Virus record (IMG/VR): IMGVR_UViG_3300031972_002446 | Location: 101,941 to 165,940 of that record | Reading direction: 5' to 3' (one strand) | From: a virus | DNA length: 64,000 nt | Shown: piece after piece, positions 47,794 to 61,902 of the stretch | How positions within the stretch are numbered: position 1 is the stretch's first letter | Layout: every line of letters begins with the position of its first letter | Notes under the pieces: model-generated | Seen by the model: the letters and a program-made list of their open reading frames with translations, nothing else | Database searches by the model: none | Told to the model about the DNA's origin: nothing | Program-made: the position numbers and the translations under genes

Positions 47794-48594
47794 TTATTTT
47801 AAATTGATATCGAACGGAAAATCATAATTAAAAAAGTCTATGTCTTTACCGTATATTTTTTCTACCATATCTTTGCAATATTGATTATAAAATAATTTGT
47901 ATTCAGGTATTCCCACAGATAAGTCTTGCATATTGATTAAGCCGTTATGTTCACTAGTAAATCTAAAAGGAGCTACAGAACACGACGTGTCGCTATCTTT
48001 AGTTGTGTATTTACCACTTTGATATGAGGGTTCTACTTCGTTGTCGTTGTAATCTAAATCAAGTCCGTGTGTTTTTTTTAATAAAGCTAAATCATCGACT
48101 ATGTTCTCTATTTTTATAATAAAATCGCAATCAATCATATATTGAGGTAAAAAATGATGTTCTAAAAAACTCCTACTTTTACGGCCCCAACGAGTGCTGT
48201 TTCCTATTATAATTAATTCTAAAAAAGACTGAAAAGATAGAGTAAGATTATTTTGCGCTTGATGTAAGTATTTAATAAAAGAAGAAACAGCTCTAGAATA
48301 AGGATTTCTAACTAGTTGTATGTTAAAGAAATTTTTATAAAATTGCTTATCTTGATTTGGCATATGAGATAAAAAATCTGCTTTGTCTTTATGTGTCTGT
48401 TTTATATTTTTCGTATACTCATCTCTTTGTTTTATACAACTTCTATTGTGATCGTAGCTGTTAATGTGTATTAAAAACATTCTAGCTATTATAGAGCAAC
48501 CAGCTTTTGGAGACCAGTACATAGCTAGTTTATTTTTCGGGTCTGGTAAAACTCTTGGGCAATACTCAGATTCTTGAATAAAGTTATTTCTCAT
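47794..48594 (-). CDS. PAPS-type sulfotransferase (266 aa)
   Basis: The 5'-phosphosulfate loop MYWSPKAGCS at residues 25-34 and the 3'-phosphate motif LVRNPYSRAVSSF at 94-106 are those of carbohydrate sulfotransferases (Sulfotransfer_2-like). YPxCxx-type acceptor elements are not clear, and there is no membrane anchor, so it would act in the cytoplasm. It is the last gene of the glycan cassette, overlapping the glycosyltransferase stop by ATGA. It would transfer sulfate from PAPS to a sugar or protein; the acceptor is unknown. Sulfotransferases are uncommon in phages. Confidence 0.8.
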   Translation of the reverse strand: MRNNFIQESEYCPRVLPDPKNKLAMYWSPKAGCSIIARMFLIHINSYDHNRSCIKQRDEYTKNIKQTHKDKADFLSHMPNQDKQFYKNFFNIQLVRNPYSRAVSSFIKYLHQAQNNLTLSFQSFLELIIIGNSTRWGRKSRSFLEHHFLPQYMIDCDFIIKIENIVDDLALLKKTHGLDLDYNDNEVEPSYQSGKYTTKDSDTSCSVAPFRFTSEHNGLINMQDLSVGIPEYKLFYNQYCKDMVEKIYGKDIDFFNYDFPFDINLK

Positions 48595-51056
48595 GATATT
48601 ACTAAAGCTCCTATGTATCGTTCTAAAGCGTGTTCAAATTGCAAATCCGGAATACCTTTTAATTTATATTTGCTATAAAGTTGCATAAAGTTAAAACAAG
48701 TACCGTCTTTAATGAATTTTTGACTAGAAAAATCTATAGGACTGTTTAGGGATTGATTACTATATTCTTGCATATACCTATTAAAGATAGCGTCATCTTT
48801 CATACATTCTATCCAAAAAGTATCATGTTTTTTAATGCTTGTTAATTGTTTTACTATTTTATCATAATCATCTACCAATGGTTTTAAATTAGATAGTTTT
48901 GATATAAAAGTAGTGCCTTGAATATACTTAAATTGTTTTTTGTGTAGGTTGTGAAAAATATCAGGTTCATTCTCCATTATTTTTCTATTTAAATCATCTG
49001 AGAGACAGTCTGTAGTAAATCTAGATGCTGTTAAAGTATCGTATTTATGTACGTCATTTATATAGAATATAGAGTGTAATATATTTTTCCAAGATTGATT
49101 ATTTTTATTATGTATATAGGCTATTTGGGTATTTGTGTTTATAGTTGTGCTTGATGACTCATAGATATACTTTAACCCCTCTAAAAGACCTCCTATATCA
49201 TATCCACAATTCTTTCTAAATATAACATATCCAAATTTCTTTAAATTTAGTATACTTTTCTCTAAATAGTTTTTAATATTAGGCCCAAAAACATTTACGT
49301 CATCACTACTTATGCAAATCACTGGAACAAAATTACATTTTTGTTGTTGACGCACAATAAATTGATTTATTATATTTATGTAATAATCTATTTCAGTTTT
49401 AGATATATTATTAATATACAAAGATAAGATTATAAAATCTTTTTTAGTATTCCTAGAGGGATTGAACATAATCGGTTGGCTATAATTATCATTAATATAT
49501 TTTGTATTTTTTTGCGTTAGATTAGGTAACACATTAATTGATAATTCTTGAAATTCTTTACGTATATCCTCATTGGTTTGTCCTTTTAAAATAAAATATG
49601 ATTCTAGCTTATTGGTGTCGTGCGATGTGTGTATATTATTTTCTATAACTATTATTTTTTTATTTAATAATAAAGCTTCTAATACAACTATAGGGCAAGG
49701 GTCACTAAGACTAGTTAATATAAAGTAATCTAATCTCTTAATATATTTGTAAGGATTGTCTGTATTAGGAACCCATAAGAAATTTGAGGGGATAGATGTA
49801 TCATCATTTGGGTATAAAATTTGTAATTTTTCTTCAATTTTTTTACCGCCAATCCAAACAAAAATGTATTGCGGATTATCCCTAGCTAATTGCAATAATA
49901 GAATAGGATTTTTTCTTAAAGATAAATCTCCACACATGCCTATGACAGGCTTATCTTTATCTTCTATAATCAAATCACAACCCTCATCAGCTTTTCCTTG
50001 TATTATATTTTGCTTTGTAGTTGGTATAAATGGAGGATCAATTCTAATTTCTTTAAGATTAGGTTTATGCTTTAGAAATTCTTGTTTAATTTTTTCAGAG
50101 ACAACTGAGATTGACTGAATGTTATCTATAGATTGTGTGTCTTGATGTCGACTCTGCATAGGTTTAGCGAAATCTTCATATGTTTCGTGTAAATGCACTA
50201 TGGTTTTATTATGCCAATAATTAAATTTATGTAAGTTATATAAATAATAATTTATTGAGTTGGAATATATCAATACAGGCTGAGTAGTTTCAAATATTTT
50301 TTTGAGTGATTCTATTTCGTTGTAGTGGTATAGTTTTGCTGGGTGGTTCGGTAAAATATTATTAGGAAATGGTTCCACTATGTATATATTTTTGTATATA
50401 TCACTATCGTATAAATAATCATAAAGATCATACAGATAAATGGGTGCTCCAGTAAGAGAGATATCATGATTAATTAGCAGTATACTATTCTTATTAATAT
50501 GGCTATGTGAAATATTATCTTTTTGTTGATATATTTCATCATAAGACATGCCCGTATAATATGTTCTATTTTCGTTTTGCCCGTGAGATATAAAATGCAT
50601 ACTAGCTTGAGCATTACTCATAGCGGATAGATCAGGATTGTATAGCTTGTAAAGTCTAGCATCAAAATCAATAGGTAATAAATCTGATAGTTTTGTTGAA
50701 TAAGCTCTGCGTTCTTGTTTACCATATTCAATATAATGAAGCTTAGCTAATAATTCTGTATTTATATTTTCTTTAGATAAGTCTGGATTTAAAGATAAGT
50801 ATTTGTGCCAATTGAAATCTTTAGGAACAAGAGTGTTAACATAATCTAATTTCATCTCAGGTTTTTTATTTATATTTTCAGTATGTATGTTCGAGTATTG
50901 TCTACCTTCATATCTGCCATATTTAAGAAAGTGAGCTATTAGATGGTGTTCTTCTACGAAACCTAATCGCTCTAAATCGGAATTTAATTTTTTATAAACC
51001 CTCCAATCAAAATCAGCTGGAAGATTTGCTCTGTCTTCATCTGTTATCTTAGACAT
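48591..51056 (-). CDS. multidomain glycosyltransferase with N-terminal repeats and RgpF-like C-domain (821 aa)
   Basis: Residues ~12-55, 77-120 and 127-167 are three copies of a ~45-residue motif (P-x-D-F-D/N ... Y ... N-x-D-L ... Y/H-G-x-x-E-x-R-x-Y), often linked to glycosyltransferases. Residues ~190-540 are a GT-B domain: LINHDISLTGAPIYLYDL, KTIVHLHETYEDF, and the donor half with VIGMCGDLSLRKNP and LTSLSDPCPIVVLEALLL. Residues ~545-815 (ILSLYINNIS, CGYDIGGLLEGL, YIHNKNNQSW) resemble RgpF-type rhamnan synthesis proteins. Probably builds the glycan encoded by this cassette. It overlaps both neighbours. Confidence 0.82.
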   Translation of the reverse strand: MSKITDEDRANLPADFDWRVYKKLNSDLERLGFVEEHHLIAHFLKYGRYEGRQYSNIHTENINKKPEMKLDYVNTLVPKDFNWHKYLSLNPDLSKENINTELLAKLHYIEYGKQERRAYSTKLSDLLPIDFDARLYKLYNPDLSAMSNAQASMHFISHGQNENRTYYTGMSYDEIYQQKDNISHSHINKNSILLINHDISLTGAPIYLYDLYDYLYDSDIYKNIYIVEPFPNNILPNHPAKLYHYNEIESLKKIFETTQPVLIYSNSINYYLYNLHKFNYWHNKTIVHLHETYEDFAKPMQSRHQDTQSIDNIQSISVVSEKIKQEFLKHKPNLKEIRIDPPFIPTTKQNIIQGKADEGCDLIIEDKDKPVIGMCGDLSLRKNPILLLQLARDNPQYIFVWIGGKKIEEKLQILYPNDDTSIPSNFLWVPNTDNPYKYIKRLDYFILTSLSDPCPIVVLEALLLNKKIIVIENNIHTSHDTNKLESYFILKGQTNEDIRKEFQELSINVLPNLTQKNTKYINDNYSQPIMFNPSRNTKKDFIILSLYINNISKTEIDYYINIINQFIVRQQQKCNFVPVICISSDDVNVFGPNIKNYLEKSILNLKKFGYVIFRKNCGYDIGGLLEGLKYIYESSSTTINTNTQIAYIHNKNNQSWKNILHSIFYINDVHKYDTLTASRFTTDCLSDDLNRKIMENEPDIFHNLHKKQFKYIQGTTFISKLSNLKPLVDDYDKIVKQLTSIKKHDTFWIECMKDDAIFNRYMQEYSNQSLNSPIDFSSQKFIKDGTCFNFMQLYSKYKLKGIPDLQFEHALERYIGALVIS

Positions 51057-51546
51057 TATTTAAACAACTACCTTTGTCTTTATTAGATATAATTTCTGGA
51101 TTTATTGGCCATTTAATATCAAAATCTTTATAACAAAACGCCTCATCTGTATTAGGATTGTATATATCTCCCTGCTGGTATAATACTACACTATCAACAG
51201 TTGCAAGAAAAGCATGACCACAAAAACTAGGGATATAAATACTATTTAGTTTTTTTGCATCTAATACCATACCAAAATATTGTCTGTATGTAGGACTGTC
51301 GGTTCTGAGATCTACACAAACATCATAGATTTGACCTTGAACACAGGTAACATATTTTGCATAAGGAGCCCTATGTATACCTCTTAAAACGCCTCTTTTT
51401 GAAAAACTATAGTTAACCTGAGCTATTTTAAATGAGTCTTTAATATGGGGATTTTTAAAAATTTCCGAAACAACACCCCTACTATCTAGATGTATATCAG
51501 GTTTTACCCAATAGCAATATGGTATATGTGTTTTATTAATTTTCAT
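51049..51546 (-). CDS. RmlC-like dTDP-4-dehydrorhamnose 3,5-epimerase (165 aa)
   Basis: Cupin fold with SRGVVSEIFKN, KRGVLRGIHRAPYAKYVTCVQG, DVCVDLRTDSPTY, and IPSFCGHAFLA. The LRGIH His is the catalytic base of RmlC and the VDLR and GHAFL blocks are family markers. It is about 15 residues shorter than the usual 180. With the RmlB-like gene directly upstream (11-base overlap), it would make a 4-keto-6-deoxyhexose and epimerise it. No RmlD reductase is encoded beside them, so the product may be finished by the host or differ from rhamnose. Confidence 0.82.
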   Translation of the reverse strand: MKINKTHIPYCYWVKPDIHLDSRGVVSEIFKNPHIKDSFKIAQVNYSFSKRGVLRGIHRAPYAKYVTCVQGQIYDVCVDLRTDSPTYRQYFGMVLDAKKLNSIYIPSFCGHAFLATVDSVVLYQQGDIYNPNTDEAFCYKDFDIKWPINPEIISNKDKGSCLNNV

Positions 51547-52528
51547 TCAGCATCCAATCGATAGTTTTCTGTAATGATTGATTAAAATCTATAGGCTGTT
51601 TCCATCCCATATTTTGTAATTTAGACCCATCTAGACTATATCTCCTATCATGACCCGGTCTGCTTTTATTGAGATCTACATATTCTAATCTAGCAGGCTT
51701 ATTCATTATTCTAGCTATTTCTTTTACCATGTCGTCATTATACATTTCTCTATCACCGACCACATTATAATGCTCCCCAGGTTTACCGTTTTTGAGCAAA
51801 AACAGAGTTGCATTCGCAGCATTTCTAGCATGTAACCAATGTCTTTGTCCAACATACTCTACATTACCATGATTGTCTAGTTGGGCGTGAATCTTAACTG
51901 GTTGATTTTTATGAATTAAATCTATAGCTAAAGCTATAAACTTTTCTTTGTGTTGCCTCTCTCCAAAAAGATTCATAGTATACGTATGTATAATTGGTAA
52001 ATTATATGTATTGTGATAAGCAATACCAGCAGCACCAGCTCCTGCTTTACTTGCGCTATAAGGATTAGAAGGTCTCCATCTATCGTCTTCTTTAAAATCA
52101 TAACCATCTGGAGCAGGACCAAACACTTCGTCTGTTAAATAATTTATAAACAAAGCTTTAGGAGAATATTTTCTATACCATTCTAATAAGTTTAATGTTC
52201 CCATAACATTATCTTCAAAAAATTGTTTCGGATAATCGATACTTCTCGTAACATGACTATTAGCTGCTATATGCGCTACATAATCTACCTCTCCTATACT
52301 TTCTATAATATGAGGAGGAAAATCAAATTTAAGATCGTGATAAATTATTTTTATTCTTTCTGCATATTTTTGTACATGCAGACTATCTACTATTCTTCGC
52401 ATATCCCCAACGTAAGTTAACCTACACAGGGCGATAATCTCCCAATCGGTATTGATCAAAGTTTCTTCTACAAAATGAGAACCTAAAAAACCAGCAGCTC
52501 CAGTTATTAGGATTTTCTTTTTTGTCAT
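51536..52528 (-). CDS. NAD-dependent sugar 4,6-dehydratase/epimerase (RmlB-like) (330 aa)
   Basis: Short-chain dehydrogenase of the extended type: GxxGxxG at 10-16 (GAAGFLG), HIAANSHVTRSI, TDEVFG at 132-137 and YSASK at 157-161 as catalytic Tyr-Lys. TDEVYG-like motifs are diagnostic of dTDP-glucose 4,6-dehydratases. It makes the 4-keto-6-deoxy sugar nucleotide for the next gene. It overlaps the RgpF-like gene upstream by ATGA and the epimerase by 11 bases. Confidence 0.86.
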   Translation of the reverse strand: MTKKKILITGAAGFLGSHFVEETLINTDWEIIALCRLTYVGDMRRIVDSLHVQKYAERIKIIYHDLKFDFPPHIIESIGEVDYVAHIAANSHVTRSIDYPKQFFEDNVMGTLNLLEWYRKYSPKALFINYLTDEVFGPAPDGYDFKEDDRWRPSNPYSASKAGAGAAGIAYHNTYNLPIIHTYTMNLFGERQHKEKFIALAIDLIHKNQPVKIHAQLDNHGNVEYVGQRHWLHARNAANATLFLLKNGKPGEHYNVVGDREMYNDDMVKEIARIMNKPARLEYVDLNKSRPGHDRRYSLDGSKLQNMGWKQPIDFNQSLQKTIDWMLNEN

Positions 52529-54126
52529 ATGTACAGCACCTTCTGTTTAAGGTTATGAGGTAAAACTCCCGATAAAATTCTTTCCCAGCTATGAGTATAG
52601 GTTGGGTCGTGATTCTTGAAATAACCAGATTCTAAATTTTGATATTCAGATAAAATAGAAATGTTTAGATCCTCTAAAACATTTACAAAAAAATTATATT
52701 TAGCTAAAAACATTGTACCTGCAATAAAATATGTATTATCAGAACTTAATTTATATTTAGAACAGATCTCGGATAGTATCGGTTCATTTATTTGATCCAT
52801 TTGCATCTTGTAATTATTAAGACCTACCATACAAGCTTCATTTTCATTCTCTATCATAGTAATATTGTGTAGTAGATTGTCAACCAAGCCCATGAAAACC
52901 ATTCTACGAAAACCATGATTTGTTTTAGTATGCAGTTTTAATATATAATCATATTCGTCTTTTTTGTGGTGGTTGTGAAGACATTGCATGAATGGGCCTA
53001 TATCCGCTCCTTTGTTAGGTACTATGTACGGTTTAATATTTAATGATTCAATATTATCGTCCGATGTAATAAAGAAGTCTACATCAATAAATGTATAACT
53101 TTGTAATTTGTTTATTACAGCTTTTATATCTTCTATATGTTTATCAGAAGTATTACCAAGATGTATACAACATAGCAATTTTCTAATACTATCAGGAACT
53201 TTATTACTAATTTTATTAAAATCATAAACTTGAGAGTTTAATATAGGTATCTTATGGTGGTCTGTTAGTATCTTATGTTGTAAAATATTATAAGTAAATA
53301 ATTCTTTCCAAAATATTTCTTTTTCGGTAGAAATATAAAAAAAATAACCAATATCAATATTGTTTTCGATACAAAACTTTGTTATATAATATTCAGAATT
53401 ATGTCTATTTAAATTTATAATATTAATTATTTTTGAAAATAATGTCTTTTTAAAAATAAAAAAATTATTGTTTAGACCGTAAAAAGGTTTATTATTCATC
53501 ATGATAGAATATTTATCATGAATGGAGAAAATATTATATTTAGAATTTAGGTATGTTTGTAAGAATTTATCAATATTTTGATATACCACATTGGTGTTAT
53601 CTGCATATAGTATATCCTCAAAAGATTTAGCTTTAATAATATCAATAGTGCTTTTTAAAGAAAATGTATTTTTATAATATTCTCTTATTTTCCTATAATA
53701 TTTTGAATTAATTTCACCATATATAACAATAAATATGTTTTCTATTGGTATGCTTTGAGAAATATTAGATAAAGATAATAATGCTGTATCTGTAGATAAA
53801 TCCGAATCTAAATAACAATAATACACACAAGCCGTATTACTTGTTTTATAAAAATGTTTTATGTCTATGTGAGGACTTTCAAACCACTTTTTATATTGTG
53901 CTCGATTTTCTAGATAATATTGAAGACTATCATCTTTGGTCTTAATGAACGAGGTGTCTGATAAAACCCAATTTAATTTGCTAAAAAATAAACCATAATC
54001 AAAATTATCGTCTAAGATGCAGGGGTGTGTAAATCTACCGTCGTGTATGCAATCTTCTTGAAATTGTTTAAAGTTAGATGCACAACCATAATATTCATTA
54101 TAGAATGCAGTATCAAAAGTTTCCAT
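52525..54126 (-). CDS. RgpF-like polysaccharide synthesis protein (533 aa)
   Basis: The C-terminal ~220 residues (LLCCIHLGNTSDKHIEDIKAV, VPNKGADIGPFMQCL, DYILKLHTKTNHGFRR, YFIAGTMFLAKYNFF) match the rhamnan synthesis protein F pattern, a glycosyltransferase-like family of cell-wall rhamnose polysaccharides. The N-terminus has a degenerate unit (FDTAFYNEYYG) that recalls the repeats of the 821-residue protein. The middle is Ile/Tyr/Asn-rich. First gene of the glycan cassette; its ATG follows a TATAAT box by only ten bases. Confidence 0.72.
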   Translation of the reverse strand: METFDTAFYNEYYGCASNFKQFQEDCIHDGRFTHPCILDDNFDYGLFFSKLNWVLSDTSFIKTKDDSLQYYLENRAQYKKWFESPHIDIKHFYKTSNTACVYYCYLDSDLSTDTALLSLSNISQSIPIENIFIVIYGEINSKYYRKIREYYKNTFSLKSTIDIIKAKSFEDILYADNTNVVYQNIDKFLQTYLNSKYNIFSIHDKYSIMMNNKPFYGLNNNFFIFKKTLFSKIINIINLNRHNSEYYITKFCIENNIDIGYFFYISTEKEIFWKELFTYNILQHKILTDHHKIPILNSQVYDFNKISNKVPDSIRKLLCCIHLGNTSDKHIEDIKAVINKLQSYTFIDVDFFITSDDNIESLNIKPYIVPNKGADIGPFMQCLHNHHKKDEYDYILKLHTKTNHGFRRMVFMGLVDNLLHNITMIENENEACMVGLNNYKMQMDQINEPILSEICSKYKLSSDNTYFIAGTMFLAKYNFFVNVLEDLNISILSEYQNLESGYFKNHDPTYTHSWERILSGVLPHNLKQKVLYI

Positions 54127-54233: not shown

Positions 54234-54482
54234 CTATTTACTCATTAGTTTATTATATAATAATAACGAAACACAAGCGCCGCCAACGCCAGCAAATATT
54301 CCTGCTGGCTCTATGGCGGAATATGAGCCTAGTAAGTATAGTCCAGCCCCACCCATATAAGAACCAGCCACTCCTAATGCTATAGTTTTAACAAAACCGA
54401 AGTTTTCTTCTCCAGGAATTATAGCCTTAGTTATAGAACCTACAAAAATACCATAAACACACCAGGTTAATATACTAATCAT
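54234..54482 (-). CDS. GlsB/YeaQ/YmgE-like small membrane protein (82 aa)
   Basis: Three membrane segments (WCVYGIFVGSITKAI; FVKTIALGVAGSYMGGAGLYLLG; AGIFAGVGGACVSLLLYN) with GVAGSYMGG and a PGEENFG loop, as in the transglycosylase-associated/GlsB family. The family's biochemical role is unclear (acid and envelope stress). In a phage it may sit in the inner membrane and assist host takeover or lysis. Overlaps the previous gene by 8 bases. Confidence 0.75.
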   Translation of the reverse strand: MISILTWCVYGIFVGSITKAIIPGEENFGFVKTIALGVAGSYMGGAGLYLLGSYSAIEPAGIFAGVGGACVSLLLYNKLMSK

Positions 54483-54858
54483 TTATTGCCTCCAGTAAAA
54501 CGGATACTTCTTCGTCCGTGATAAATTCTCCTTTATTAAATATTGCTTTAGATAAAGAATTACCATATAGTTTATAGTCTTCTTTACATAACTCTCTTCT
54601 AATTATTTTTTTTAATCTGATTCTATTAAACCAGCTTTTCTTTATTGATATCTCTTGAATTTTCTTTTTATAAAAATCTAAATCATGTTTTTCAGACTTA
54701 TTACATTCTTGTATTACTCTGATACCGTTAACAAGTATAGCAATCATCATTATTATCATTATTACACTGCCAAACTTATCTGATGGCAATTCCTGATTAG
54801 ATAATATGCTTGAAGCTAAATTTTTTAATTTCTCATCTTTAATTTCATTTTGATTCAT
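54475..54858 (-). CDS. single-pass membrane protein (127 aa)
   Basis: Residues ~30-47 (VIMIIMMIAILVNGI) form one membrane helix. The N-terminus is short and charged, and the C-terminal ~75 residues are basic and helical (KKIQEISIKKSWFNRIRLKKIIRREL), then acidic. No enzyme motif. It overlaps the GlsB-like gene by 8 bases. A scaffold or partner of the envelope cluster is possible. Not recognised. Confidence 0.55.
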   Translation of the reverse strand: MNQNEIKDEKLKNLASSILSNQELPSDKFGSVIMIIMMIAILVNGIRVIQECNKSEKHDLDFYKKKIQEISIKKSWFNRIRLKKIIRRELCKEDYKLYGNSLSKAIFNKGEFITDEEVSVLLEAIND

Positions 54859-54860
54859 AA

Positions 54861-55100
54861 TTATGGCTCACAATACTGACATTGAATTTTTGCTATTCCA
54901 TCACCACTTATGTACCATCCTTTACCCTTGCATACGGGACAATCTTTGCGTTTATACTTCGCGTTTTGTTCTGTAGAGTCTACAGCAATTCTGCCTCCAA
55001 CCATAGTAACAACACTAGTTGTGCTATAGTCATACTTTTCAGAAGACCCTCCGTAAAAAATAGCTGCCACTAAAGTACTAGCAAATAAAAGTTTATTCAT
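54861..55100 (-). CDS. small exported protein with CxxCxGxG zinc motif (79 aa)
   Basis: The N-terminus MNKLLFASTLVAAIFYGGSS is signal-peptide-like. Near residues 54-63 is CPVCKGKGWY and at the C-terminus CQYCEP, so the pair of CxxC knuckles resembles one DnaJ-type zinc finger. It overlaps the serine protease stop by ATGA and is probably exported with it. Could bind or cap the protease or another secreted protein; that is speculation. Confidence 0.6.
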   Translation of the reverse strand: MNKLLFASTLVAAIFYGGSSEKYDYSTTSVVTMVGGRIAVDSTEQNAKYKRKDCPVCKGKGWYISGDGIAKIQCQYCEP

Positions 55101-55942
55101 AATTTACCTATTTTCTCTTTGGGTAATTTATTAAGTTCTTCTAATGTTGGAGCTTTTACACTTGGGTCTAAAGCCCATTCTATATCTTCTGATTTAGACC
55201 ATTTTTGTATTCTTCTCATAGGAACAATAAGATTAAATGTTTCACCAGCGCCACGAACTAACATCCCAATATATTCACCAGTGGTTAGGAAAACTCCACC
55301 ACCAGATGAACCGGGAAAAGCAGTTACTGTTGTTTGGTCAAATAAAATTTTAGTGCTACTATTCAGAGCAAGCATGCGACCTACCTGACTCATAATACCT
55401 GTAGTCATGCTATTAGCTCCACTTTCACCTAATAAAGAACCCACATGATATAATTGAGTACCTAAAGGAAGTCCAGAATTGCTTGTATCTTTTTCAAATC
55501 TTGCTGATACATCTACAAAATCAAACTTTTTAATCATGAGTAAAGCAAGATCCTCTCCATCTGTTGCATCACTATATTTAACAACCACAGCATCCATAGA
55601 TAATTCCCCAACAGTAATACCGTTTTCTATGAGCTTTTTAACTATCTTAACATCTTTAAATACAGGTTTCTTTAGTGTTTTACCTTCAATATCTAAAATA
55701 CTTCTGACACTTCTGATACCCTCTAAAACATGTGCGGCTGTCCATACAAAATTTACATTTTTTTCACCATCGTCTGATTGTATTTTTCTCGTAAATATAA
55801 CACCACTACCAGAACCTCTATCTGTTTTAATGGTCACGCTAATATCTTGTAAGTATTGACTGACAGGAATCTCTTCTGCTTGTAAAATAGATACTGGTAT
55901 TAACATTAATGTGATTATAAATAGTGGGGCTAGTTTAATCAT
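55097..55942 (-). CDS. secreted trypsin-like serine protease (281 aa)
   Basis: The start at 55942 is chosen because AAGGAG lies nine bases before it and the ATG overlaps the stop of the 51-residue gene; the upstream ATG at 55951 directly abuts AAGGAG. A signal peptide (residues 1-22, ending SILQA) precedes a trypsin-fold protease with the triad H71 (WTAAHVLEG), D131 (GEDLALLMI) and S213 (FPGSSGGGVF), as in DegP/HtrA-like proteases without a PDZ domain. It would act outside the cytoplasm. Such a secreted protease in a phage is unusual. Confidence 0.88.
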   Translation of the reverse strand: MIKLAPLFIITLMLIPVSILQAEEIPVSQYLQDISVTIKTDRGSGSGVIFTRKIQSDDGEKNVNFVWTAAHVLEGIRSVRSILDIEGKTLKKPVFKDVKIVKKLIENGITVGELSMDAVVVKYSDATDGEDLALLMIKKFDFVDVSARFEKDTSNSGLPLGTQLYHVGSLLGESGANSMTTGIMSQVGRMLALNSSTKILFDQTTVTAFPGSSGGGVFLTTGEYIGMLVRGAGETFNLIVPMRRIQKWSKSEDIEWALDPSVKAPTLEELNKLPKEKIGKL

Positions 55943-56094
55943 TTTATCCATCTCCTTAGGAAATCTAAAACTGGTCTTTTTTTGTCTGGTACAACATCAT
56001 GTTGTGTAGGTTTAAACATTTTTAAAATTGCTAATATAAAATTAGTAATTGTTTTAATCAGGCTATTTAAAGCTATTTTATCTAATAATTTCAT
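55939..56094 (-). CDS. small amphipathic or membrane protein between the two proteases (51 aa)
   Basis: Translation begins MKLLDKIALNSLIKTITNFI and continues through LAILKMFKP to DFLRRWIK. A hydrophobic, amphipathic helix (~10-27) is followed by a charged tail. ATG overlaps the papain-like stop, and its TGA overlaps the serine protease ATG, so it is coupled to both. The AAGGAG used by the protease lies in its last codons. Function unknown. Confidence 0.7.
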   Translation of the reverse strand: MKLLDKIALNSLIKTITNFILAILKMFKPTQHDVVPDKKRPVLDFLRRWIK

Positions 56095-57017
56095 AAGTAA
56101 TCTACGAAGCCGTAGTCCGGGAGTTTTTGTGGTGGAAATCCGTTAAAGTCACTAAAGGCATAAGCTCCGTTTTGCCTTAACATACCTTCTGCAACATCTG
56201 CATGTATTAAAAAAGATCCATCTGGGATTGGACCCCATTCTGGGTGTCCTCCGCTATTAAATTTACCCCAGCTGTTTTGTATAAGAAAAGCAGGCTCATC
56301 ACCAGTATCGTCACAAGCCGTCCAGGCCATCGCATGATTCCAGGACCCACTTTTTCGAGCAAATCCCTTGCTATTTCTTTTGTTAGAAAATCCATAATTA
56401 CTACAAACACTTAATCCATACCCATTGGCTAGCGCATCTCTAGCTTCTTCAACAGTTCTAATTAGAGAAACTGTTTTTATTTGATGTTCATCAGCTTTAT
56501 CTATTACTTTATCTGGTAAGCCTCTAGCCCCCCATTTAGCACCCATGCTACCGTTATATTTACTAAAATCTGCTACTCCTGGATAATTTTTACGAACTAA
56601 TACCCCACCTGTTTGGCTAACAAAAGTTGCAGCACGACTACAACTCATTCCTTGACCACCATGACCTCTACACCCATAGATAGCCTCCGTAGCGCCTCTA
56701 GCAATCCAGCTCTCTTTATCTCCTTTAACATCTATTTCAATGGCTCTAGTTACATCGCAAGCATTACGAGTAGCATGAGAAACACAATCTCCTGTGGTTT
56801 GTCTTTCTATATAAGCATTTTTATCAAATTTTAAAACCGACTTAAAAGGAGTTGATAATTTACCTTTACCACTATTTTTAATTTTTTTAGCACCATCTTT
56901 GAAATAGGCATACTTAGATGTGCTTATTAACTCATCAAAGATATGTGGTTCTGAAATTGAACCTATAAAACCTTTTTTATATAGATTATATAATTGATCT
57001 GGAGTCATTCTAGACAT
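56091..57017 (-). CDS. papain-like (C1) cysteine protease (308 aa)
   Basis: C1-type fold with Q73 and C78 (RQTTGDCVSHATRNACD), H228 (SGSWNHAMAW) and N248 (FLIQNSWGKF), the full catalytic set. The oxyanion Gln and the QNSWG block are conserved. No signal peptide and no inhibitory propeptide are obvious, but ~65 residues precede the core. Coupled by ATGA overlap to the 51-residue gene and then the serine protease. Potential targets are virion precursors, host surface or immunity proteins. Confidence 0.85.
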   Translation of the reverse strand: MSRMTPDQLYNLYKKGFIGSISEPHIFDELISTSKYAYFKDGAKKIKNSGKGKLSTPFKSVLKFDKNAYIERQTTGDCVSHATRNACDVTRAIEIDVKGDKESWIARGATEAIYGCRGHGGQGMSCSRAATFVSQTGGVLVRKNYPGVADFSKYNGSMGAKWGARGLPDKVIDKADEHQIKTVSLIRTVEEARDALANGYGLSVCSNYGFSNKRNSKGFARKSGSWNHAMAWTACDDTGDEPAFLIQNSWGKFNSGGHPEWGPIPDGSFLIHADVAEGMLRQNGAYAFSDFNGFPPQKLPDYGFVDYL

Positions 57018-57520
57018 TATTTTGAACCCTCATAAAAAGCCCAGCTTAAAGCTCTAAAGGCGTTAACAGATTTTTGTCTCGTTGTATTATCTAAGATAAC
57101 GTCGTCTGAGCCGATAGCTGTAATAAGTAAATCTTTAGCAGACTCCGCTAAATTTGGATATTTGTCTTTAATATCAAGTCTAAGCATTTTACCAGCTAAA
57201 CTATTAGCTGATTTAATACTAGCGGTATCTTTAATAATCTCATCTTCATTATCTAAAGATATTAAAGTTGCCATATCTGAATATAAAGCAGATAATTTCA
57301 TACAGTCGCTAGGCTTGGTTGAATCATTAGATTCTCCAAGTATATTAATTATTATTCTGGCTTTATTTAGTAATTCAGTATCTGCTGGAGCATCTGTCAC
57401 ATATGTCTCCACAGAGCACTTGGGTTCTAAAGCAGGAATACTGAAAGAACTTAAATCTGGTTTAAATAAACCTATCGCTACTAATCCTGTAGCTATAAAA
57501 AGTAATCCTTTGTTATTCAT
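57017..57520 (-). CDS. exported or membrane-anchored protein (167 aa)
   Basis: The start at 57520 is chosen because GGAG lies six bases before it; the longer frame adds 11 residues inside the upstream gene. Residues ~1-20 (MNNKGLLFIATGLVAIGLF) are a signal or membrane anchor. The rest is helical and acidic (LLNKARIIINILG; MKLSALYSDMATLI). It shares a gene border with the papain-like protease. No family recognised; may be a protease partner or inhibitor. Confidence 0.58.
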   Translation of the reverse strand: MNNKGLLFIATGLVAIGLFKPDLSSFSIPALEPKCSVETYVTDAPADTELLNKARIIINILGESNDSTKPSDCMKLSALYSDMATLISLDNEDEIIKDTASIKSANSLAGKMLRLDIKDKYPNLAESAKDLLITAIGSDDVILDNTTRQKSVNAFRALSWAFYEGSK

Positions 57521-57917
57521 TATTATCTCCAGAAAAGGACTGTTTATCTTCACAAATATTTGGACTTAAATACGGAAACATTTGATCAGCGACTTCTACA
57601 GCTTTATCACAACCACTCTTGACCGCTAAATCTCTTGTTTGCTTCCATGAAACTACAAGATCAAAAAATACATCTCTTTCTTCTGAATTAACCTTTGGAG
57701 AAGAAGGAAACGAGTCTGGAATATCTGGTACTACAACCTTAACACTTTCGGGTATTTGGTTTTTTACGCTGTTAAATAAATTTAAAAGCAATTTTTGAAT
57801 TGGGCTTAATTTATCTTTAAACAAAACCCATATTACTATTCCTACCCCAGCATACAACGCTAAATCTGTTACTCCTAATCCAGCGCTAAATTCTTCAAAA
57901 CTTTGTGTAAAATTCAT
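57513..57917 (-). CDS. single-pass membrane protein (134 aa)
   Basis: Membrane helix near residues 18-35 (LALYAGVGIVIWVLF), then basic and proline-rich cytoplasmic or periplasmic parts (VVVPDIPDSFPSS), then a helical C-terminus. Its stop overlaps the following gene by 8 bases. AAAGGA ribosome site. No motif beyond topology; it is one of a run of small membrane proteins encoded here. Confidence 0.57.
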   Translation of the reverse strand: MNFTQSFEEFSAGLGVTDLALYAGVGIVIWVLFKDKLSPIQKLLLNLFNSVKNQIPESVKVVVPDIPDSFPSSPKVNSEERDVFFDLVVSWKQTRDLAVKSGCDKAVEVADQMFPYLSPNICEDKQSFSGDNNE

Positions 57918-57927
57918 AATTGTCCTT

Positions 57928-58356
57928 TCATGGTATATATAAAACTGTTACAGATTGATTTTGATAATCTTCATCGTCTAATTGTTTTTTAAGAAAAATA
58001 CCTGTTTGTCTAAAAGTAGCAACCAAAGCATCAATACTAGATCCTACTAAAATCATTAAAAATGCTTTGACATATTTGTGAATTATAGGTTCTATGATAT
58101 TAGGTATTACTGGTATATTCACAGCTATAAATACTTTATCATAAAAATCTGATAATAATTTTAATGCTAATTCTTTTTTGTCTGGGCTGCTTATATCAGT
58201 ACCAATTTTTTCAATAATTTGAATAACACTAGCTGTAACTACTTGTAAAATTTTCCATGCTTCAGCTACTGCGAATCTTTTGACATTTTTCAAGCTATCC
58301 TTAACTTGATTGGTTAGATTGTCAACTTCATTAGTAATTAATTCTTTACTATTCAT
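57928..58356 (-). CDS. helical, probably membrane-associated protein (142 aa)
   Basis: The start at 58356 is supported by GAGGT four bases upstream and avoids overlap with the previous gene. The first 60 residues are amphipathic helix (NEVDNLTNQVKDSL). Then VFIAVNIPVIPNIIEPIIHKYVKAFLMILVGSSIDALVATF gives one or two hydrophobic segments. It could be a holin-like or peripheral membrane protein, but no signature is seen. Confidence 0.55.
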   Translation of the reverse strand: MNSKELITNEVDNLTNQVKDSLKNVKRFAVAEAWKILQVVTASVIQIIEKIGTDISSPDKKELALKLLSDFYDKVFIAVNIPVIPNIIEPIIHKYVKAFLMILVGSSIDALVATFRQTGIFLKKQLDDEDYQNQSVTVLYIP

Positions 58357-58363
58357 TATTACC

Positions 58364-58843
58364 TCATGTGTGTATATATTTACGAATTTCTTGATAAATT
58401 GAATCACCGATACCGTTAATATTAATCAGTTCTTTAATATCTTTAAATTTTTGATTATTTCTATAGTCTATTATTTTTTGTGCTGTAGCAGGTCCTATGT
58501 GTGGCAATTGAATCAACTCTCCTAAACTTGCTTGGTTTATATTAACTGTAGATATCTTTTTGTCTATTCCTATATAATCTTCTAATTCTTTCCGTTGATT
58601 GTCTTGTTCCTTTTGTTTAGTTATTTCCTGTTGTACTTTTTCTTTTTCTCGTTTCTTAAGATATCTAGATAATACCATACATTGGCCACCCAATAAAATG
58701 ATACTCTCCACACCGTGAGTAACTGCGCTGATAAGATCGTCTTTGGTATCTGGTTCAGTAATTACTCCAATGATAAATAAGCCACTAATAATGAAGCTAA
58801 CTAATGTAAACCAGAATTCACTTGTTTGGTAAGATTTTTTCAT
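58364..58843 (-). CDS. membrane-anchored ComEA-like helix-hairpin-helix protein (159 aa)
   Basis: The start at 58843 has AGAGGA six bases upstream. Two membrane segments (~10-28 and ~40-58) precede a charged coiled linker. The C-terminal ~60 residues are the ComEA-type double helix-hairpin-helix: VNINQASLGELIQLPHIGPATAQKI and FKDIKELININGIGDSI. The HhH binds dsDNA without sequence specificity. Topology would put it near the membrane, so a role in DNA entry, anchoring of phage DNA or exclusion is possible. Confidence 0.8.
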   Translation of the reverse strand: MKKSYQTSEFWFTLVSFIISGLFIIGVITEPDTKDDLISAVTHGVESIILLGGQCMVLSRYLKKREKEKVQQEITKQKEQDNQRKELEDYIGIDKKISTVNINQASLGELIQLPHIGPATAQKIIDYRNNQKFKDIKELININGIGDSIYQEIRKYIHT

Positions 58844-58892: not shown

Positions 58893-59084
58893 TTAGGCTG
58901 AGTAATATGTTGGATCATCAAATTTAGTGTCATATTTAGCTTCTATATCAGCTATAACAGGTTTGTTTGATACATATGTATCTATTTTGTCTTTAGCTGT
59001 CGGACCTGTGGGTTTGGTAGATACTACAATAGTACCATTTTTAATAGGATTAGCTGGTATGCTTTTTTGAATATCGTTTGCCAT
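58893..59084 (-). CDS. small hydrophilic protein (63 aa)
   Basis: A short, Pro/Lys/Asp-containing, probably unstructured protein (KNGTIVVSTKPTGPTAKDKI) ending YDTKFDDPTYYSA. ACAGGAG ribosome site supports translation. No motif. Encoded between the membrane-protein run and the Cys-rich virion proteins, so it may be a virion accessory. Confidence 0.5.
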   Translation of the reverse strand: MANDIQKSIPANPIKNGTIVVSTKPTGPTAKDKIDTYVSNKPVIADIEAKYDTKFDDPTYYSA

Positions 59085-59112: not shown

Positions 59113-60315
59113 TTAGTCAATACTTATAGTGGTATTAGGATCTGGTTGCCTTGAAATTTTTGGGTTTACACCAGGATGGATCTCCGTTTGAATGAAAGGT
59201 CCGTTACCTTTAGCTCCTTTACCCAGTTGGCCGTTACCATTGCCTTCTTGTGGAGCAGCTGCAAATAGAGGAGAACACGTACAGGATCCAGAAAGTATTT
59301 CTATGAAAACTTTTGATGGGCATTTTTTCTGAGAACAAGAATTAATAAAGAGCGCAGCTTTCTCCATAAACCTTGCAATAGATTTTGCACACCCTTCATT
59401 ACCAGCGGCTGCTACAGCTGCTTCGATTGCTGCTGTATAGTCTAGACCTGCAAAAGGATTTGATTGCCTATCATTGTAATAACCTTTACTAAGAGTTACC
59501 TCTTTTGATGCATATGCTTTGACTTCACAAGCATTTGCTGGAGGAGCTATACCTGTAAGATATTGCCAAGATAAATTAGACCCAGGACAAACAGCATAAC
59601 CTGGCAGAGCTCCTTTTGGGTGTAATTGCCATACTGATCTAGTAGGCGCACAACCGCCTTTAATATTTTTCGGCTGTTGGCAACATAAGGTGTAGCCGCC
59701 ACCAATAGCTGATCCAGTATAGCCGTTTGGACATCGCCCTCTAGTTATTTGCATTTCCTGACCAGTGCCGTTGGTTAAGGTATTTTCTCCTTGACAAAAT
59801 GTTTTTACATTAGGAGGCGTTGCTCCTACTGGTGTAATACTGCTAAGACCTGGGTATCCATTAGTATCGGTATCATCATCAGTAGCAGTAAAGCAATGTA
59901 TAGTTATATTAACAACGCAATTGCATTGTATGCTTGCAAATCTAGGAGGATCATCTGCACCCGCCCCTTTTGCACTACAATTTAAACCCATAACATTTGC
60001 AGCATTATACAACTCACTTAAGAATTTTTTCAATAGTTGCGGATTGTCTCTATGTCCTCGAATCACTTTTAGCACTAATGTGCCACTACACAAAGCTCCT
60101 AAACCTCTAGGATTGCATATAGCTCCTGCTGGTTTGGGTTCACATGTTACATTAGGAGGCACAGCATAACTTATAGGTAAGCATTCATCATAACTACAAC
60201 CGACTTCAACTTCTCCTTTAGTTCCGTTTATTTCTTTTAATTTTTCACCATTAAGATCACAATAACTGTGTGTTACTGGCGTATCTTTATTTAGTATTAT
60301 TGTAACACTACCCAT
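59113..60315 (-). CDS. Cys-rich secreted-like or virion protein, paralogue 1 (400 aa)
   Basis: A protein with about 30 Cys residues, Gly/Pro-rich segments and no signal peptide. Blocks shared with the next gene include YNAANVMGLNCSAKGAG, the CNC/C...HC region after it, GGGYTLCC, LPGYAVCPG with QYL, and an AxxNPFAGL segment. The duplication is therefore clear. Such proteins may be virion decoration or fibre proteins with disulphide or zinc stabilisation. Function unknown. The final ~60 residues are Gly/Asn/Pro-rich. Confidence 0.62.
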   Translation of the reverse strand: MGSVTIILNKDTPVTHSYCDLNGEKLKEINGTKGEVEVGCSYDECLPISYAVPPNVTCEPKPAGAICNPRGLGALCSGTLVLKVIRGHRDNPQLLKKFLSELYNAANVMGLNCSAKGAGADDPPRFASIQCNCVVNITIHCFTATDDDTDTNGYPGLSSITPVGATPPNVKTFCQGENTLTNGTGQEMQITRGRCPNGYTGSAIGGGYTLCCQQPKNIKGGCAPTRSVWQLHPKGALPGYAVCPGSNLSWQYLTGIAPPANACEVKAYASKEVTLSKGYYNDRQSNPFAGLDYTAAIEAAVAAAGNEGCAKSIARFMEKAALFINSCSQKKCPSKVFIEILSGSCTCSPLFAAAPQEGNGNGQLGKGAKGNGPFIQTEIHPGVNPKISRQPDPNTTISID

Positions 60316-60333
60316 ATGATTAAATTTCCTTTT

Positions 60334-61566
60334 TTATATGCCACCTGGATCAGATGGTTCTGGATTAGTCGGTACATCAAATTTAGGGTCAGTAACTGTT
60401 GGACCTCCGGGCCCGTTACCTCCATTGCCGCCGCCATCACCGGGCCAGCCTCCCTCAAGAACCGGATCCGAACATGGAGAACAGCTTACACTGACGCTCT
60501 CAACTGACATCAGTACCGCCGCGCATCCAGGTTTTAACTTCTCGCAAGCGCTGGTAAAACTCTGTAGATCTGGGTCGTTCAGGGCCTCACTTACGGCCTT
60601 GTCAGCAGCACTTTGGGCTGATGGTATACAGCCACTCACTATACCATCTTTAAATGTGTCCGCTGTTATACCAGCAAACGGATTTGCACAAGGTTCTGGA
60701 AAATAACCTGATGAGCCGCAAAGATCTGAGCCTGCTAATGCCTCAAACCCGCAAGTATCATTAGGTCCAGGTACCGGTGCTAAATATTGATATGATTGCC
60801 CATTGTTGCAAGTCCAAGGTCCTCCACCCGTGTCATGTTTCGTTAACATAAAAGGACCAACATGTAGAGAACAAGCCATGTTTCCGGGTAAACTAGCAGG
60901 GTTTTTACAGCACAAAATCGAGCCACCTAGAGCCAGAACTGTGGTACCTGCAGGACACTTTGGTGGAATACCCACTGCAGCTGTAATTGCGTTTACATTA
61001 CCTCCTAAAGTGTTACCACCAGTACAACTTACAGGCATAGCAGGAACAGCACCACCTACAGGAGATCCATCCTCATCGTAGCCTGATGCCCCCACCTCAA
61101 TCTGATCCTGCTCTCCTTCATTAGTATGACAATAAGCTTTTACATACGCTGTTGCATTACAACAGCAATCTTTTAATTTACTAGGATTTCTATTACCGTG
61201 ACCCTTAGCCGTACAATTTGCTCCCTGAGTATTAGCTGCATTATATCCATAATTTAGATGCAGAAGTCTGGTCGCTGGATCCCAGGGGGCATTCAGAATT
61301 TTTCTTAAAACATTTCCACCACAACCACTCCATTTACTTACACTACAACCACCGGATTGTCTACCTCCTTTTGGTGTGCATGTAATACCACCGTCACCAC
61401 CCCATTGAATAGGCCAACAAGCGCCTACCGTTACGCTTGCCATAGCTACTTCCTCATCAATAGTGATTTTATTTCGTTTCATTGCCTCCTTAATACAGGC
61501 AGTTTCGGACGATAATGATAATTTGATTGAGTTTGTGTTCACACCGAATTCTATGGTTTCACTCAT
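60334..61566 (-). CDS. Cys-rich secreted-like or virion protein, paralogue 2 (410 aa)
   Basis: Related to the preceding entry: YGYNAANTQGANCTAKGHG, DCCCNATAYVKAYCH, LGGSILCC, QYLAPVPG and CANPFAGI align in order. It has a different N-terminal ~40 residues (NSIKLSLSSETACIKEAM) and a Gly/Pro-rich C-terminal tail. The DNA of this gene is visibly richer in G and C than the neighbourhood, as is usual for Gly/Pro/Cys-rich codons or for transfer. GAGGAG ribosome site. Confidence 0.62.
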   Translation of the reverse strand: MSETIEFGVNTNSIKLSLSSETACIKEAMKRNKITIDEEVAMASVTVGACWPIQWGGDGGITCTPKGGRQSGGCSVSKWSGCGGNVLRKILNAPWDPATRLLHLNYGYNAANTQGANCTAKGHGNRNPSKLKDCCCNATAYVKAYCHTNEGEQDQIEVGASGYDEDGSPVGGAVPAMPVSCTGGNTLGGNVNAITAAVGIPPKCPAGTTVLALGGSILCCKNPASLPGNMACSLHVGPFMLTKHDTGGGPWTCNNGQSYQYLAPVPGPNDTCGFEALAGSDLCGSSGYFPEPCANPFAGITADTFKDGIVSGCIPSAQSAADKAVSEALNDPDLQSFTSACEKLKPGCAAVLMSVESVSVSCSPCSDPVLEGGWPGDGGGNGGNGPGGPTVTDPKFDVPTNPEPSDPGGI

Positions 61567-61569
61567 GTG

Positions 61570-61902
61570 TTACTCCTCTATTCTTTTTTCTAGGTTGTCT
61601 AATGTTTTGCTTAAAGTGGCGATGTTGATTTTTAACTCTGTCATCACCTCTGTATTTTTTTCTAAAGCTCTAAATAAAATATTAGTAGCTTCTTTGCTGT
61701 CGTTTAATCTTTCCATGATAAAATTTCTATCTTTGGCATATTGACTACCTTGAGACTGAGCAGCAATCATTTCTTCTACTTCTTTTTTATTAACTAAATT
61801 TCTAACAAATGTAGTCCAAAAACCTATTAAGGCTATAACTACACTTGCCATGTGTGTGGTAAAGTTATCAAAAAAATGACCCACGGTATTAGGATCTGCC
61901 AT
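61570..61902 (-). CDS. holin-like membrane protein with coiled coil (110 aa)
   Basis: One membrane helix near residues 17-37 (MASVVIALIGFWTTFV), then a basic NKKEV, then a long coiled coil to the end (ALEKNTEVMTELKINIATLSKTLDNLEKRI). The topology resembles XhlA/hemolysin-type phage holin partners or a small spanin-like protein. It starts eight bases before paralogue 2's gene. No lysozyme or amidase is encoded near it in the window, so a lysis function is only suggested. Confidence 0.55.
   Translation of the reverse strand: MADPNTVGHFFDNFTTHMASVVIALIGFWTTFVRNLVNKKEVEEMIAAQSQGSQYAKDRNFIMERLNDSKEATNILFRALEKNTEVMTELKINIATLSKTLDNLEKRIEE

Follow-up and report, generated by a model that had tools for sequence, protein, structure and literature searches.

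Papain has a Q-to-C spacing of 6, and the surface-layer protease Cwp84 is a secreted bacterial enzyme. Viral cysteine peptidases serving as lysins are described from methanogen viruses, where PeiW and PeiP are pseudomurein endoisopeptidases directed at a non-standard wall (PMC4592898). The locus presented here lies in the last 64 kb (the window) of a 165,940-bp IMG/VR virus contig. It encodes a papain-like protein that, likened to PeiW and PeiP by description, is also a viral cysteine peptidase, for which we propose action against a non-standard wall; it differs in matching C1/papain, and Pfam reports no pseudomurein-binding domain. With xylellain and cathepsin H of papain family C1 it shares the predicted fold and the Gln/Cys/His/Asn residues, whereas its Q-to-C spacing is 5, a conserved N-terminal part of ~70 residues precedes the catalytic Cys, and it occurs almost only on viral contigs. 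Cwp84 has the papain-like fold as well, but the enzyme described here is signal-less and viral.

The surrounding genes resemble a canonical lysis cassette in their compact, overlapping arrangement, in the putatively holin-type TM proteins beside a soluble, signal-less hydrolase, in the paired anchored proteins and, in related phages of ~62 kb, in the neighbouring fibre-like gene. In contrast to such a cassette, the enzyme is papain-like and falls outside the seven peptidoglycan-hydrolase families tested, the paired proteins m134 and m178 are not recognisable spanins, and an exported zinc-ribbon protein belongs to the core. Unlike Rz/Rz1 spanins, the m134, m178 and zinc-ribbon proteins of the window include no outer-membrane lipoprotein partner with a lipobox. 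The genes of the cluster and its conserved neighbours are as follows.

54234..54482, minus strand: GlsB/YeaQ-type (Transgly_assoc, PF04226) small membrane protein, a lineage-restricted partner
54475..54858, minus strand: mem127, single TM and basic C-domain (1 TM in 105/105)
54861..55100, minus strand: small exported zinc-ribbon protein, CxxCxGxG...GDG...CxxC
55097..55951, minus strand: secreted trypsin-like serine protease (PF13365), an optional insertion
55939..56094, minus strand: 51-aa amphipathic/hydrophobic basic peptide, with a homologue in 30/33 full-flank loci
56091..57017, minus strand: papain-like (C1-type) cysteine peptidase of 308 aa, the proposed lysin
57017..57520, minus strand: m178, N-terminal membrane anchor and all-helical domain (family-supported start 57520)
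57513..57917, minus strand: m134, single TM, predicted N-out, with a small conserved cytosolic C-domain
57928..58356, minus strand: m159, membrane/amphipathic protein with up to three hydrophobic segments (family-supported start 58356)
58364..58843, minus strand: two-TM holin-type protein with a basic C-tail, here followed by a C-terminal HhH domain (family-supported start 58843)
58893..59084, minus strand: s63, a small protein preceding the two-TM gene, a conserved neighbour (30/33 full-flank loci)
61570..61902, minus strand: m110, single TM and coiled coil, BhlA/UviB-like, a conserved upstream neighbour (26/33 loci)

All ten ORFs that the first-pass annotation had listed at 54234-58843 on the minus strand exist; with the family-supported starts, each runs into the next by 1-13 nt or is separated from it by 2-10 nt. 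The dN/dS ratio was well below 1 for all module genes for which it could be calculated, which indicates purifying selection, and the papain-like gene ranks with the most constrained of the module (dN 0.05-0.09 versus dS of ~0.9-1.5). Since the gene order is moreover kept in essentially every relative, the cluster is far beyond chance. It shares its strand with the replication genes (RNR, PhoH, polymerase), and the main structural genes are on the other strand.

The residues Q73, C78, H228 and N248 of the papain-like protein were invariant in all 180 distinct sequences. The match to Peptidase_C1 (PF00112) reached 14.4 bits versus a curated cut-off of 20.7 (E 0.04; the best value in the family was 0.0025), and with a score under the Pfam cut-off the sequence points to a divergent relative of C1 rather than a typical member. 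The structure model, built from 20 sequences, is of low confidence (pLDDT 52). With this model, Foldseek returned the papain family throughout its top rows (probability 1.00), and VIA gave a Z of 13.4 for both xylellain and cathepsin H, and of 13.1 for Cwp84, so that the original designation as papain-like agrees with the structural matches and a papain fold is predicted, from a model with a pLDDT of only 52. A profile search of the family against PDB sequences gave nothing convincing. No TM segment was predicted in any of 190 homologues, and the 308-aa protein has no signal peptide. In two divergent homologues, an intein bearing a LAGLIDADG endonuclease is inserted immediately ahead of the catalytic Cys. 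Inteins favour such sites in essential genes, and in this respect the papain-like gene is typical of essential genes. Some relatives also encode, just downstream, long, Cys-rich and catalytically dead papain paralogues that have no signal peptide.

The remaining proteins of the cluster are mostly membrane-associated, with topology predicted by hydropathy. The protein that had been called a membrane-anchored HhH protein does carry this domain in the window (HHH_3, E 2.5e-17), but HhH was found in only 9 of 62 distinct homologues, and at the core the protein appears from its family to be a two-TM (19-37 and 49-67), basic-tailed holin-type protein (median tail charge +9) to which HhH is an optional addition. 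A DNA-uptake (ComEA-like) role was rejected on the same count. In two other lineages, L110 and L283, the equivalent small two-TM genes of the module have PHROG holin matches with E values of 1e-4 to 4e-4; in the lineage of the window the match to holins is weak, with one homologue (L298) reaching a PHROG holin at E 0.02. The m110 protein matches phrog_1625 (E 1.6e-4), a family whose name we read as BhlA/UviB type, and for its homologue L026 the match to PHROG holins is weak (E 0.016). The m134 gene adjoins m178 across lineages, and its product was predicted N-out with the domain inside in 124 of the 128 homologues with a predicted TM. The AlphaFold2 model of m178 shows a five-helix domain (pLDDT 88.9) behind the N-terminal anchor, and this domain is probably periplasmic. 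The predicted structure had no PDB match, a profile search against PDB sequences likewise yielded nothing convincing, and the BFVD match was a protein of an uncultured phage with no function assigned (A0A6J5QJ56). A lipobox was found in none of the m134, m178 and zinc-ribbon proteins of the window, and a lipobox-like pattern in only 8 of 163 m178 homologues. The GlsB-like assignment held, with PF04226 (Transgly_assoc) scoring 28.6 bits versus a cut-off of 25.3 (E 1.7e-6).

The exported protein described at first as a zinc knuckle has the motif CxxCxGxG...GDG...CxxC, which is of zinc-ribbon/DnaJ type instead, and in the L109 lineage it forms a fusion with thioredoxin. The secreted protease is trypsin-like, as initially annotated (PF13365, E 3e-11). 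Its gene takes differing positions across loci, and was rejected as a core partner because it is present in only 3/33 full-flank loci and can also stand apart from the module (L086).

Relatives of the papain-like protein in IMG/VR numbered 169 by a tblastn-confirmed scan and 559 by an alignment-based scan. Among the 33 full-flank loci, the two-TM gene, m159, m134, m178, papain and zinc-ribbon genes were each present in all, while glsB and the 51-aa gene occurred in 30 each and mem127 in 29. The order m134–m178–papain–[trypsin]–zinc-ribbon–mem127 is kept down to ~45% papain identity, including in phages of ~62 kb that have another type of genome. More lineages were reached using distant relatives as queries and iterated profiles; in these further lineages papain accompanies m134 and m178, the order differs, and zinc-ribbon and holin-type genes lie in between. 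Records of the far lineage span ~47-82 kb; the pair examined measure ~62-65 kb at 63% GC, and one of the pair encodes an SU10-like portal and an ERF recombinase. The window's order is kept here from an m134-like gene through m178 and papain to zinc-ribbon; next come counterparts of mem127 and m110, and after these a fibre-like gene. The m134-like gene and both counterparts were assigned by position and topology, not by profile match. In an unbiased reverse test, papain adjoined m178 in all 65 loci retrieved by m178 alone, and no endolysin substituted for it there. The cluster is thus a real conserved viral module whose core is syntenic in every relative examined, and the proposal of an undescribed membrane-linked system is borne out in that the genes are not scattered among relatives.

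Outside uncultured viruses the module is rare. Searched by tblastn, 50,697 cultured phage records gave no match to the papain-like protein of three lineages, nor any to m178. A search of 84,980 species genomes returned only four loci, from MAGs assigned to Flavobacteriales, SAR202 and Lokiarchaeota; the assignments are implausibly diverse, and these loci look like mis-binned phage DNA.

The statement that no lysin is present holds for the seven hydrolase families tested: Phage_lysozyme, Amidase_2, SLT, M23, CHAP, M15_4 and Amidase_3 (PF00959/01510/01464/01551/05257/13539/01520) were absent from all 20 related records, which are 105-238 kb long and possibly fragments. Amidase_2 was also absent from 13 further records of other lineages. 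Pfam scans of the tail and unknown arms of the window gave no peptidoglycan hydrolase, and there was none among the matches listed (25 of 34 families) for the 47 proteins of a ~62-kb phage. The statement does not extend to the papain-like enzyme, which we read as the likely lysin.

The contig also carries host-type genes, namely a DUF1559 protein with a pilin-type leader, a DUF1501 protein and a PSCyt1-PSCyt2-PSD1 protein. DUF1559 was found in 4 other of the 20 related records and in 0/14 control genomes, and PSCyt2 in one other related record. We take the DUF1559, DUF1501 and PSCyt families to be characteristic of Planctomycetota and their relatives, and the host is probably a member of the Planctomycetota, a suggestion that is strongest for the lineage of the window itself. 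The planctomycete envelope was described in older work as protein-rich and disulfide-stabilised (PMC3035269; see also PMC2754498), and later work showed that planctomycetes also have peptidoglycan (PMC4432640). We found no relevant study of planctomycete phages or their lysis in the open-access literature.

Our preferred reading, which we hold to be evenly balanced between right and wrong, is that the cluster serves as a lysis module in a large, uncultured group of phages, probably of Planctomycetota. We favour it because an intact signal-less hydrolase stands at the core together with holin-type and paired anchored proteins and no lysin of the families tested was found; the recurrence of the same module in ~62-kb phages beside a fibre-like gene also speaks for it. 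In the course of events that we infer, the two-TM protein (58364-58843), and probably also m110, m159 or the 51-aa peptide, would permeabilise the inner membrane late in infection. The papain-like enzyme, made without a signal peptide, would exit through the holin-type holes and cut load-bearing peptide bonds of the wall, be it a protein sacculus, the peptides of peptidoglycan or both. The m134 protein, with its domain inside, and m178, with its helical domain probably outside, would act where spanins do, controlling the rupture of the envelope or bringing it to completion. The exported zinc-ribbon protein may keep periplasmic thiols reduced, and the trypsin would be an optional extra protease. 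Four observations count against lysis: the presence of planctomycete peptidoglycan (PMC4432640), for which a pure protease might not suffice; the location on the replication-gene strand, which is not the classic late position; the weakness of the match between the window's two-TM protein and holin families; and the lack of any visible cell-wall-binding domain.

An entry module, in which a virion-borne or injected papain-like protease opens the envelope at infection and the membrane proteins aid DNA passage, seems to us unlikely. The dead Cys-rich paralogues downstream in some relatives do look like virion proteins, and a putative virion-type gene (g170) often lies nearby, but most partners are membrane proteins, which would be unusual for a non-enveloped virion, and the module is common to very different genome types. 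A device for superinfection exclusion or for takeover of the host envelope, working at the membrane early on and close to the defence or exclusion device that the first-pass annotation had suggested, is in our view improbable. The many small membrane proteins, the GlsB-like protein and the replication-gene strand would suit such a device. Accessory exclusion genes, however, are not usually core and syntenic with invariant catalytic residues, whereas here the module is both core and syntenic in all relatives (33/33 and 65/65) and almost absent from bacterial genomes, and the catalytic site is invariant and carries inteins; because the module is core and syntenic, defence or exclusion was dropped as the lead. 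Intracellular proteolytic maturation or assembly, acting on virion or membrane proteins, is very improbable: a cytosolic papain-like protease beside m134, with its predicted cytosolic C-domain, would be compatible with it, but no evidence favours the virion maturation at the membrane first suggested, nothing connects the module with capsid genes in this genome, and the known prohead-protease classes do not include papain-like enzymes.

Returning to lysis, a further and more tentative proposal, which we regard as rather doubtful, is that the module represents an undescribed lysis machinery, in which papain-like proteolysis, with redox help from the zinc-ribbon protein or thioredoxin and with m134/m178 as a rupture pair, replaces peptidoglycan hydrolysis in attacks on planctomycetes across phage genome types. 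The wall chemistry of planctomycetes was long disputed, and how phages exit from them appears to be undescribed. Hundreds of uncultured phages encode the conserved papain-like protein as a candidate lysin, so that the question of planctomycete lysis becomes directly testable with a single purified enzyme, and the papain-like gene would be a marker for a large phage group unmatched in the cultured-phage collection searched.

Directly after its end, the module of ten genes is adjoined by a glycan block (window 47794-54126) of rmlB/rmlC-like and glycosyltransferase-like genes, which is kept in some relatives and missing in others. Upstream of the module, two large Cys-rich proteins of 400 and 410 aa (window 59113-61566) are encoded between its conserved neighbours m110 and s63. 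These proteins, which gave no match in the Pfam search, are an insertion in the window genome and are absent from most relatives.

Immediately downstream of glsB, some relatives encode Cys-rich paralogues of the papain-like protein, 525-750 aa long, that have lost the catalytic Cys; these are perhaps virion proteins based on a dead protease. In two divergent papain-like proteins, an intein with a LAGLIDADG endonuclease is inserted exactly before the catalytic Cys. The positions, by locus, are:

L026:13263-15002, long paralogue without catalytic Cys
L021:11765-13864, the same
L028:9495-11528, the same
L078:11489-13678, the same
L079:3778-6030, the same
L080:10211-11788, the same
L084:5929-7992, intein-containing protein
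L313:6648-8690, intein-containing protein

Elsewhere on the contig that carries the module, a subtilisin-family protease and a CAP-domain protein are also encoded, as are an actin-like volactin and planctomycete-type host genes:

G000:C1:9643-10572 (L102), subtilisin-family protease (PF00082, E 3e-58)
G000:C1:10882-11886 (L102), volactin (PF25216, E 4e-67)
G000:C1:27405-27785 (L103), CAP-domain protein (PF00188)
G000:C1:51662-55952 (L104) and G000:C1:25084-26091 (L103), the planctomycete-type genes: DUF1501, one PSCyt1-PSCyt2-PSD1 protein and one DUF1559 pilin-like protein

Four module-bearing phage contigs (L108, L109, L110 and L111) were found inside MAGs labelled Flavobacteriales, SAR202 and Lokiarchaeota, into which they were probably mis-binned.
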